Part shown: positions 82 to 3,089 of the stretch, piece after piece
How the letters are laid out: every line of letters starts with the position of its first letter
Numbering within the stretch: position 1 is the first letter of the stretch
NCBI GenBank assembly: GCA_003559065.1
Contig: PWMZ01000001.1
Location: 1-18,274 of the forward strand
Length of the DNA stretch: 18,274 nt
Direction of reading: 5' to 3'
Source of the DNA: Candidatus Nealsoniibacteriota bacterium
Lineage (GTDB): Bacteria > Patescibacteriota > Minisyncoccia > Minisyncoccales > GWA2-38-27
The notes under the pieces: generated by a model
What the model was told of the DNA's origin: nothing
Databases searched by the model: none
What the model saw: only the letters and a program-made list of their open reading frames with translations
Position numbers and translations under genes: made by a program

Positions 82-243
82 ATGTTATATCAAAAAAATC
101 ATCAATTTTTTGCCCAAGACGAAGACGAAATAGAAGATGATGTCCCTGTAGAAGATGATGAAGAAATGGAAGATGATGAAGATGTAGAAGATGACGAAGA
201 AATAGAAGACGATGAAGATGTAGAAGATGACGAAGGCTTTTAG
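82..243 (+). CDS. Small, extremely acidic repeat protein (53 aa), function unknown
   Basis: This short reading frame starts at ATG 82 and ends at TAG 241-243. After about 13 ordinary residues it is almost entirely Asp and Glu, built on a 12-residue period (VEDDEE-M/I-EDDED): two full copies at 148-183 and 184-219, then a partial third. It has a consensus promoter 50 bp upstream and a strong hairpin terminator just after the stop, so it looks like a complete monocistronic gene. There is no Cys, no membrane segment and no signal peptide. A purine-rich GGAAAAAGG tract lies about 28 nt upstream of the ATG, too far for a classical ribosome site, so the start is uncertain; the frame stays open back to 37. 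Polyacidic proteins of this sort can bind cations or basic proteins, or resemble acidic tails of transcription and translation factors. No family is recognised. Confidence 0.55.
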   Translation: MLYQKNHQFFAQDEDEIEDDVPVEDDEEMEDDEDVEDDEEIEDDEDVEDDEGF

Positions 244-383: not shown

Positions 384-635
384 CTATTCTTTATAAACTT
401 TATAACCTTCTCTCACTTTTTCCTTTACCTTTAAGCCTACTTCCTGCCCTTTTTTGGCTTTTTTAATCTTTTCATGATCAACTTCCATTGATTTTACTTC
501 TTGAGTAAAATCAGTATCTTTTCCTCCTTCAATTCTAATTTCATCTCCGACAGCCAAAGAGCTTTTTAGTTTAATAACAGCTACCTTAGGTTTAGGAAAA
601 TAGTGAACTACTTCTCCTATTATCTTTGGTTTCAT
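384..635 (-). CDS. EF-Tu domain 2-like small protein (translation elongation factor-like)
   Basis: This 83-residue protein reads as one small beta-barrel. It opens with KIIGEVVHYFPKPKVAVIKL, continues with LAVGDEIRIEGG and a Val/Lys pattern, and ends in GQEVGLKVKEKVREGYKVYK. This is the pattern of the second domain of EF-Tu/IF2-type GTPases and of the C-terminal barrel attached to some U32 peptidases. It has no GTPase domain, so it cannot be a translational GTPase itself. A stand-alone protein of this kind is often annotated 'translation elongation factor-like' in Patescibacteria and archaea; the partner is unknown. It is the first gene of a two-gene unit with the 31-residue membrane peptide. 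A structured RNA with its own promoter and terminator lies immediately upstream and may control it. The ATG has only a distant GAAAGG upstream. Confidence 0.75.
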   Translation of the reverse strand: MKPKIIGEVVHYFPKPKVAVIKLKSSLAVGDEIRIEGGKDTDFTQEVKSMEVDHEKIKKAKKGQEVGLKVKEKVREGYKVYKE

Positions 636-675
636 ATTTTTATTAATTAAGACCTTTCTTATAATATATCATAAC

Positions 676-843
676 GAAAATTAAAAACAACCTTAAAAAA
701 GGTTGTCTTTAATGAGAGGGACAGGATTGATAAACTCGGTTTAATTATTAATATTGAGCTGGACAACTCAAGGATACCCTTAAACCTCCTTTATTAAAAC
801 CCTGTTGTCCTTCGGAAATACTTTTTTGTATTCCTACCCCCTC
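676..843 (-). ncRNA. Structured leader or small RNA with promoter and terminator (attenuator-like)
   Basis: The predicted transcript starts near 843, seven bases after a TAAGAT -10 box, and ends at a hairpin plus T-tract at about 706-676. Its first bases (GAGGGGG, 843-837) pair with CCCUCUC (720-714), a closing stem extended by GGA (834-832)/UCC (726-724). Inside are GGACAAC (810-804) and GUUGUCC (767-761), a 7-bp pair, and a small hairpin GGAAUAC/GUAUUUCC (833-812 region). The terminator's 5' arm GACAACC (707-701) can also pair with GUUGUC, giving mutually exclusive terminator and antiterminator folds. It could be a cis-acting attenuator of the 83-residue gene or a stand-alone RNA; the closing stem is reminiscent of 6S RNA. 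No named class is recognised. Confidence 0.5.
683..706 (-). terminator. Intrinsic terminator of the structured RNA
   Basis: ACAACCTT (687-694) and AAGGTTGT (699-706) form an 8-bp stem with a 4-nt loop. Read on the minus strand it is followed by TTTTTAATTTT, which fits rho-independent termination. It lies between the structured RNA and the start codon of the 83-residue gene at 635. Confidence 0.7.
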
Positions 844-849
844 AAGAGT

Positions 850-878
850 ATCTTAAAAAATTTAGAGGTTTTTGTCAA
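850..878 (-). promoter_or_regulatory. Promoter for the structured RNA
   Basis: On the minus strand, TTGACA (complement of 873-878) is a perfect -35. A 17-bp spacer leads to TAAGAT (complement of 850-855). It sits just beyond the 3' end of tRNA-Arg(CCU), so the RNA is a separate transcription unit. The same TAAGAT -10 sequence is used by the tRNA-Pro promoter at 12602-12607. Confidence 0.7.
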
Positions 879-2132: not shown

Positions 2133-2612
2133 TTATTTCAAAGATTTTAAGGTTTTTTTATGATTATGGATTAAGTAATGACAATTATAACACAAAAAAA
2201 TTAAATTTGAAAATTGATTGTTAGACCTATCGCCATCCAGATGATGAACTAATATTATCCTTTTATCTTTACAGCCGCATCGCCTACAAGATACTTCAAC
2301 GCCCATTCTAATAAGTAATGCCTTATAGTCTATATATTTTCCGTCTATCCAATTAGGATGATCAGGTCCTCGTTGGAGTAGATTTCTCCACTTCATCATG
2401 CAATCTTTAGTACAAAAGAACGTTTTAGAATGTTTTAAAAAACGCGGCTGTCTCCAAATCGTTTTGCCGCACCTATAACAATTAACAAATCTTCCTTTCC
2501 TTTGGGCTTTATATTGACATTTCCGAGAACAATACTTCCCATGTCCTTTTTTGAGCCAATTTGGCTTTGTATAAAAATCTTTTCCGCAAATTTTACAAAA
2601 AACAGTAGGCAT
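2133..2612 (-). CDS. Zinc-finger HNH endonuclease (copy A)
   Basis: This 159-residue protein has three metal-binding modules. Two N-terminal CxxC...CxxxC fingers (Cys6/9/28/32 and Cys45/48/67/71) are likely DNA-binding. A C-terminal HNH nuclease module has Cys109/Cys112, the His123-His124 pair followed by D126 and G127, Asn136, and Cys141/Cys144 with His145 and His149. The HNH fold uses a metal ion to cut DNA phosphodiester bonds; free-standing genes like this are often homing endonucleases or phage or mobile-element nucleases. The substrate here is unknown. It follows its paralogue (copy B) by three bases and was very likely produced by tandem duplication. It lies directly upstream of the intact tRNA-His gene. 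No ribosome site is clear before the ATG. Confidence 0.8.
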   Translation of the reverse strand: MPTVFCKICGKDFYTKPNWLKKGHGKYCSRKCQYKAQRKGRFVNCYRCGKTIWRQPRFLKHSKTFFCTKDCMMKWRNLLQRGPDHPNWIDGKYIDYKALLIRMGVEVSCRRCGCKDKRIILVHHLDGDRSNNQFSNLIFLCYNCHYLIHNHKKTLKSLK

Positions 2613-2615
2613 ATT

Positions 2616-3089
2616 TTAATTCAATAACACATCATGACAATGCACTAAATGATGGCAATTTACGCAAAGCCATATTAAATTATCAATTTCATAATTCTGG
2701 TCATTACCATCTTTATGATGAACCTGTAAAACCCTTCGATCTTTTTTCTTACATAACTTGCACATAGCAGGCCGACCGCTCTCTAGCATTTTCTTTCTAT
2801 ATGTACTAGAACCATCAATCCAAAGAGCATGGCTTGAGCCGGAATAAACCTTATTCCGCCATAAGGCCTGACACGACTTATTGCAAAAAAATTTACCACT
2901 CTTTGAGTACCTGAAATGCTTTGGCGTCCTCCAAATCTTTTTTCCGCATGTGTCACAATTAACAAACTTACCCTTTTTGAAAGATTCATCTCGACATTTT
3001 TTAGAACAACACTTACCCCAACCTCGCTTCAAGTGCCAATTTTTTCCTTTAAACTTTTTTTCACATACTTTACAGGTAATTATGACCAT
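2616..3089 (-). CDS. Zinc-finger HNH endonuclease (copy B)
   Basis: This 157-residue paralogue of copy A has the same layout: fingers at Cys6/9/28/32 and Cys45/48/69/73, then an HNH module with Cys110/Cys113, His124-His125, Asp127-Gly128, Asn137, Cys142/Cys145, and His146 and His150. All key metal and catalytic residues are present, so both copies look intact rather than decaying. Shared signatures include GK-VNC--CGK-IWR-P in the second finger and HH-DG--NN-type spacing in the nuclease core. It is the first gene of the two-gene unit. Upstream (3090-3120) is AT-rich, with no convincing promoter, and the degenerate tRNA-His copy follows at 3118-3177. The role could be homing, defence or phage DNA processing; the sequence does not decide. 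Confidence 0.8.
   Translation of the reverse strand: MVIITCKVCEKKFKGKNWHLKRGWGKCCSKKCRDESFKKGKFVNCDTCGKKIWRTPKHFRYSKSGKFFCNKSCQALWRNKVYSGSSHALWIDGSSTYRKKMLESGRPAMCKLCKKKDRRVLQVHHKDGNDQNYEIDNLIWLCVNCHHLVHCHDVLLN

Follow-up and report, generated by a model that had tools for sequence, protein, structure and literature searches.

A pseudoknotted small RNA of Parcubacteria with a covarying palindrome that very probably pairs between copies

Introduction

Two identical RNA molecules can be joined through self-complementary stretches, as at the dimerisation palindromes of retroviruses and Ty1, which act in genome packaging. OLE, ROOL and GOLLD are RNAs with Rfam families of their own, and 6S RNA is the product of a stand-alone, single-copy gene that folds into a long rod with a central bubble. 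According to the part of PMC12286853 drawn on here, OLE, ROOL and GOLLD form homo-oligomeric complexes consisting of RNA only, the cases of RNA-only quaternary structure treated there are large, and the symmetric self-complementary contacts in OLE and GOLLD are backed by covariation of adjacent bases.

The RNA described here, known from sequence alone, lends itself to the same argument from adjacent covarying bases as OLE and GOLLD. In contrast to the three RNAs, which are large in the material used from PMC12286853, it measures about 130 nt and comes from small Parcubacteria genomes. Rfam covariance models revealed no homology to OLE, ROOL or GOLLD at the RNA in the window or in 20 further loci. 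Its self-complementary strand is 8 nt long, occurs in 19 versions and lies between two helices, next to helix P6. That position within a small non-coding RNA also sets it apart from the retroviral and Ty1 palindromes, which serve genome packaging. 6S RNA (RF00013) is likewise stand-alone and single copy, but the present RNA differs in having a pseudoknotted fold and no match to RF00013.

Results

A promoter-RNA-terminator unit

The window, i.e. the whole 18,274-nucleotide stretch of DNA analysed here, comes from an assembly of 466 kb in 71 contigs that is 78% complete. Positions 845-676 of its minus strand are a promoter-RNA-terminator unit. This unit and its surroundings comprise the following features, given in the direction of transcription.

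850..878 (-), RNA promoter: -35 UUGACA at 878-873, 17-nt spacer, -10 UAAGAU at 855-850
714..843 (-), RNA body of about 130 nt, closed by helix P1 (GAGGGGG 843-837 with CCCUCUC 720-714)
814..834 (-), P2 hairpin, 834-828 with 821-814
805..810 and 761..766 (-), pseudoknot, GGACAA with UUGUCC, the 3' strand lying in the P6 loop
791..804 and 722..734 (-), 5' and 3' strands of helix P4, 791-804 being the partner of 734-722
780..786 and 738..744 (-), helix P5, GGUUUAA with UUAAACC, 780-786 being the partner of 744-738
772..779 (-), palindrome A, GGGUAUCC, self-complementary if G-U pairs are counted, and abutting P5 on one side and P6 on the other
754..771 (-), P6 hairpin, UUGAG 771-767 with CUCAA 758-754, whose loop holds a pseudoknot strand
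746..753 (-), palindrome B, UAUUAAUA, adjoining P6 on its 3' side; a second inter-copy contact is proposed here on weaker evidence
680..713 (-), intrinsic terminator of the RNA, its arm sequences unconserved among relatives
660..672 (-), promoter-like -10 region shortly 3' of the terminator, belonging to the downstream gene
384..635 (-), EFTU_D2/U32_C-like gene of 83 aa, downstream neighbour of the RNA

A first-pass annotation of this DNA had proposed a discrete structured RNA of unknown class that operates as an attenuator; the former part of that reading is upheld by the present analysis and the latter, treated below, is not. The -35 and -10 elements and the terminator (713-680) that it placed around the RNA are indeed present, with 10 of 12 promoter positions matching the consensus (4/6 for the -10 alone). 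When positions 845-676 were folded, the minimum free energy was -56.3 kcal/mol (z -6.56), which none of 200 shuffled sequences equalled; leaving out the terminator gave a z of -3.98. A tRNA-Arg(CCT) lies upstream of the RNA at 956-885. The 83-aa gene downstream matches PF16325 above the cut-off and PF03144 below it.

Two further stretches of the window caught our attention. At 118-243 (+), strongly acidic, near-repetitive codons (EDDE/VEDDEE-like, by eye) stop shortly before a terminator-like hairpin at 259-273. At 2133-3089 (-), adjacent genes of 159 and 157 aa, similar by eye, lie beside tRNA genes; the first, the only one of the pair that was searched, has an HNH_3 match below the cut-off.

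The RNA belongs to a new family almost confined to one order

The first-pass annotation recognised no known motif here, and searches with covariance models agree: none of the Rfam 15 models matched the RNA in the window at E values up to 5, nor did any Rfam family match it at E up to 1 in 20 homologous loci (of 64 then known). The open-access literature yielded no paper recognisable as describing this RNA, subscription papers being outside that scope, and it may already be in print elsewhere. Comparison of the sequences identifies the RNA as a new structured small RNA family, one whose evolution speaks strongly for pairing between copies.

BLAST against 60 genomes (the host's own and those of relatives) found clear homologues in G001, G012, G010, G013 and G007, with E values from 7e-51 to 1e-4. 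A homologue in G039, which belongs to another family, was recognised on inspection of the matches, the remainder of which were mostly short and chance-like. Covariance model R1, built from the window and these homologues (seven sequences), had one match each in 67 of the order's 196 genomes (E up to 0.01), among them 13 of the 14 genomes in the window's family; the one miss is 61% complete. Three matches, L102-L104 (E 0.003-0.01), were rejected as false, lacking the anatomy and not being recovered by R2, a model built from 63 sequences; they are left out of all counts except the R1 tally of 67. Sequence reading combined with R2 confirmed 64 loci in the order. A more sensitive search of 40 genomes counted as RNA-less (35 from the order, 5 from the class) added G043 and G038, each showing by eye the promoter motif, terminator, pseudoknot and palindrome; nine weak matches from this search (E 0.02 and above) and a reverse-strand partial match in L046 were discarded. 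Altogether, no fewer than 66 of the order's 196 genomes, spread over 22 family handles, carry the RNA, with one match each. This figure is a lower bound, since of the 132 genomes in the order that lack a confirmed match only 35 were put through the more sensitive search.

Beyond the order, 8 of 285 genomes of the class matched, one of them from outside the order, and 2 of 379 in the phylum, both from inside it; absence at these two levels is provisional because the stricter filters used there lose weak matches. A pattern scan of named genomes returned seven records (Nealson-, Wildermuth- and Staskawiczbacteria and other Parcubacteria or Patescibacteria), and R2 confirmed the RNA in the Staskawiczbacteria record, L111. 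As far as these searches indicate, the RNA is nearly confined to a single order of tiny, uncultured Parcubacteria (e.g. Nealson- and Wildermuthbacteria).

The counts below use alignment A4, which holds 67 distinct sequences (the 64 order loci, the named records L107 and L111, and L113 from another order); counts out of 69 add L117 and L118. TTGAC stands no more than 60 nt upstream of the RNA in 64 loci out of 69, compared with a mean of 5.7 and a maximum of 12 after shuffling. The terminator arms vary among relatives, whereas the RNA body is conserved.

A covarying fold with a pseudoknot

From its 5' end the RNA consists of P1, P2, the pseudoknot strand GGACA, P4, a GGA internal loop, P5 and palindrome A, followed by P6 with the loop strand UGUCC, palindrome B, P5', an A-containing loop, P4' and P1'. 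Both sides change at 37 of the 40 named pairs across the 67 sequences, and covariation was 0.490 compared with 0.249 when shuffled (0/500) and 0.05-0.16 for slid structures. These values are to be read with two properties of A4 in mind: it was fitted to P1, P2, P4, P5, P6 and the outer two pairs of A, so that their counts lean towards the structure, and its sequences are related, so that cells are non-independent events counted without a tree. The predicted pairing of the 5' end with the 3' half holds, with 99.1% of P1 cells paired and changes on both sides at 7/7 pairs. Such changes also occur at 12/12 counted pairs of P4 and 5/5 of P5. P2 is variable in length and sequence (paired in 77.4% of cells for the register used in counting), and no P2 hairpin was seen in L118.

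The letters cited in the first-pass annotation (GGACAAC 810-804, GUUGUCC 767-761 and the terminator arms) are all there, and its 1:2 pairing does exist, in the form of a pseudoknot that covaries. In fixed columns, pseudoknot pairs 1-4 form in 67, 67, 66 and 67 of 67 sequences (267/268 cells) and pair 5 in 52/67; neither the pseudoknot nor the two central pairs of A were part of the model used to align A4. Two of the five pairs are invariant. Compensatory versions occur in the 67 sequences, namely GGCC/GGCC (2), GGGC/GCCC (2), GGAUA/UAUCC (1) and GGCAG/CUGCC (1), and GGGUC/GACCC and GGCA/UGCC were read by eye in L117 and L118.

In the internal loop J4/5, A155 is present in 67/67 sequences and A81 in 66/67; the GGA/(A or G)A loop is compatible with tandem G-A pairs. 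A small open reading frame following the Shine-Dalgarno-like strand of this region was considered and rejected, since an AUG is found there in some relatives only (by eye).

Palindrome A points to pairing between copies

Scanning all column boundaries of A4 for self-complementarity gave a single outstanding centre, column 98. Here 56 of 67 sequences are self-complementary over 4 nt, 53 over 6 nt and 43 over 8 nt, and they do so with 9, 16 and 19 different sequences respectively, although GCAGCUGC alone accounts for 13 of the 43 perfect octamers. Centres one column away were at chance level or below. The best other column over 4 nt reached 34/67, of which 33 are one fixed TTAA in P4, and the best over 6 and 8 nt, both in B, reached 15/67 and 10/67.

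Symmetry is maintained pair by pair. Pair 1, the central dinucleotide, is Watson-Crick in 61/67 sequences (shuffled mean 22.3, maximum 31 of 1000) and takes all four Watson-Crick types (TA 25, GC 25, CG 7, AT 4). Pair 2 forms in 58/67 (shuffled 42.1, maximum 50), pair 3 in 57/67 (20.1, 31) and pair 4 in 48/67 (33.6, 43); pair 5, at 11/67 (14.1), is at chance, and the proposed helix is therefore 8 bp long. Free searching of the A region found a Watson-Crick palindrome of at least 6 nt in 61 of 69 sequences, and in 68 of 69 when G-U pairs were admitted. Deviations exist: 24 of 67 octamers are imperfect by Watson-Crick rules, the window's own GGGUAUCC is perfect only if G-U pairs are allowed, the sister genome G001 carries GGAUACCC with one A/C mismatch, and L076 has no A palindrome.

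Because neighbouring bases cannot pair within one chain, and because in 66/67 sequences the transcript contains the A hexamer only once, the partner of A must be another copy of the RNA. The mean predicted energy of the A-core self-duplex is -10.1 kcal/mol, compared with -4.0 for shuffled cores and -2.7 for duplexes between species. Covarying self-complementary bases that can pair only between chains are a feature of homo-oligomeric RNAs, and they are found here. On this comparative evidence, the RNA very probably forms a homodimer through palindrome A.

Palindrome B as a possible second contact

Palindromes in strand B, e.g. CUUUAAAG, CCUUAAGG, UUCCUCGAGGAA and ACAAGCUUGU, are longer than in shuffled letters (5.37 versus 3.65; maximum of 300 shuffles, 4.21). 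They reach 6 nt in 34 of 69 sequences by Watson-Crick pairs and in 52 of 69 with G-U pairs. The sequences hint that the A and B contacts may share the load. L076, which is devoid of A, carries a B of 12 nt; a Watson-Crick B of 6 nt was found in none of the five f46 sequences (L063, L068, L073, L082 and L085), whose A spans 10-12 nt in four cases and 6 nt in L085. In the window, the linkers P5-A, A-P6, P6-B and B-P5' measure 0, 0, 0 and 1 nt. Automatic counting put the A-P6 linker at 0 in 40/69 sequences, -1 in 13 and 1-3 in 16; the automatic placing of P6 and B behind these counts, used for linkers only, misplaced P6 in several sequences.

The RNA and its downstream neighbour

As the first-pass annotation had it, a translation-factor-like gene follows the RNA: in 64 of 69 loci, the same strand carries an EFTU_D2-like gene that starts no more than about 0.9 kb past the RNA. 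This gene was found in 167 of 196 genomes and the RNA in 66, and filters-off searches near the gene in nine loci of RNA-less genomes (2.2-3.3 kb each, hand-picked from 30 loci) found no RNA, the best score being 12 bits. The synteny may thus be merely inherited, and we rejected a partnership of the RNA with the EFTU_D2-like protein, which was considered on account of it. What we take to be a LOG-like gene is located downstream in 33/69 loci, between the RNA and the EFTU_D2-like gene where coordinates were inspected. Within 2 kb on either side of the RNA in the 69 loci, the other neighbours are presumably MgtC-like (31) and amino-acid-permease-like (16) genes downstream, and a Trm9-like methyltransferase (34) and an Elp3-like gene (29) upstream.

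In the 150 nt downstream of the RNA, 56 of the 69 loci have a TG-N-TA-type -10 element (mean of shuffles 13.2, maximum 23), TANAAT occurs in 58 (33.3, 44) and the combined TG-N-TANAAT in 41 (1.8, 4).

6S RNA and the signal recognition particle in relatives

Whole-genome searches covered 30 genomes, G000 and 29 relatives. None had a 6S RNA (RF00013) above the cut-off, and at E up to 0.1 there was one match, elsewhere than at the RNA. SRP RNA (RF00169, RF01854) was found in 0/30, with positive controls in 12 and 9 of 14 known genomes for the two models; the Ffh M domain was found in 0/30 and the SRP54 GTPase domain in 1/30 (controls 14/14). An SRP-core pattern with 2 mismatches was uninformative, matching 10 places in 5 of 15 genomes against 6 places in 5 of 15 for its reversed control. 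The part of PMC4508563 drawn on here already reports SRP loss in Parcubacteria. The one below-cut-off 6S-family match in the 30 relatives scores 25 bits and lies at G004:C52:12769-12910 (+).

Weighing other readings

Could the RNA be a riboswitch or transcription attenuator of the EFTU_D2-like gene, with segments 1:2 and 3:4 pairing in one state and 2:3 in the other? This genome does contain all four segments, and the gene is in the appropriate position in the great majority of loci. However, conserved, mutually exclusive antiterminator and terminator structures were not found when the 2:3 design was examined in the 67 sequences: the 2:3 match is 6 bp in this genome only and 3 bp in the sister genome, and its mean of 3.39 bp among relatives is at chance (3.55 bp for shuffled arms). 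The fold thus stands and the switch does not, as 37 of 40 pairs change on both sides while 2:3 remains at chance. Moreover, the terminator arms differ among relatives, the promoter-like -10 follows the terminator in far more loci than in shuffled sequences, the LOG-like gene precedes the EFTU_D2-like gene where coordinates were seen, and the gene is far commoner than the RNA. The 2:3 result and the -10 beyond the terminator indicate a stand-alone RNA, and we consider attenuation highly improbable. The first-pass annotation had named a stand-alone, 6S-like RNA as its main alternative, of which the stand-alone part fits and the 6S part does not, no recognisable 6S RNA being present. A divergent 6S RNA acting as an RNA polymerase decoy, or a replacement for SRP RNA, would agree with the single copy, the promoter motif of its own and the 30 relatives that have neither 6S above the cut-off nor SRP RNA. 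Nevertheless, RF00013, RF00169 and RF01854 do not match at the RNA, side hairpins and a pseudoknot replace the long rod with its central bubble, and with the SRP protein missing too, as judged from the Ffh M domain, there would be nothing for an SRP RNA to bind; this reading is very improbable.

Less far-fetched, if still unlikely, is a ribosome-binding RNA whose AAGGAGG strand mimics a Shine-Dalgarno sequence. AAGGAGG occurs in 29/67 sequences and AAGGAG in 41/67, and G80, A81 and G82 are conserved in 62, 66 and 63 of 67. Yet other relatives have lost the motif (e.g. AAAAGG or CAAGC), P5 pairs part of the strand with covariation, and the loop, including its invariant A155, would fit a tandem G-A internal loop instead. 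The remaining reading concerns palindrome A itself, which, instead of an RNA dimer contact, might be a mini-hairpin or a DNA site bound by a restriction system or a dimeric protein. Symmetry of this kind is typical of DNA sites, and a 2-bp hairpin could arise from the outer two A pairs. Against this reading, the sequence drifts freely through its octamer versions with symmetry kept, at one spot of a covarying RNA fold; the central bases are unable to pair in one chain, and isolated 8-mers fold to 0.0 kcal/mol. We regard either as extremely improbable, and return to the reading of palindrome A as a contact between RNA copies.

Discussion

Taken as a whole, the comparative data argue that this is probably a stand-alone, single-copy gene for a pseudoknotted non-coding RNA that acts as a homodimer and does not attenuate its downstream gene. 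In the dimer, two copies would lie antiparallel and A would pair with A' over 8 bp. Where B is also palindromic, B would pair with B', so that both strands of one internal loop exchange partners; such a swap would link the copies at two four-way junctions that leave hardly a nucleotide unpaired. An exchange of both A and B between antiparallel hairpins would yield a compact homodimer of C2 symmetry, with two 8-bp helices and, on their flanks, two four-way junctions in which nearly every nucleotide is paired; we hold this tentative model to be possible rather than probable. More speculatively, the dimer might serve as a scaffold offering a protein or the ribosome two copies of each conserved feature, the J4/5 GGA/A loop and the pseudoknot. 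Dimerisation may be conditional.

If the model is true, this would be a natural double-junction RNA dimer with only about 130 nt per chain; for OLE, ROOL and GOLLD, no joining of RNA copies by a double junction is described in the part of PMC12286853 drawn on here. Conserved quaternary structures made of RNA only are few in nature, and a single-copy RNA of this length with 19 versions of its contact would document the evolution of an RNA-RNA dimer very clearly, in a molecule whose size suits routine biochemistry. For reduced bacteria, in which the 30 relatives searched have neither a 6S RNA above the cut-off nor an SRP RNA, a conserved non-coding RNA can now be assigned.
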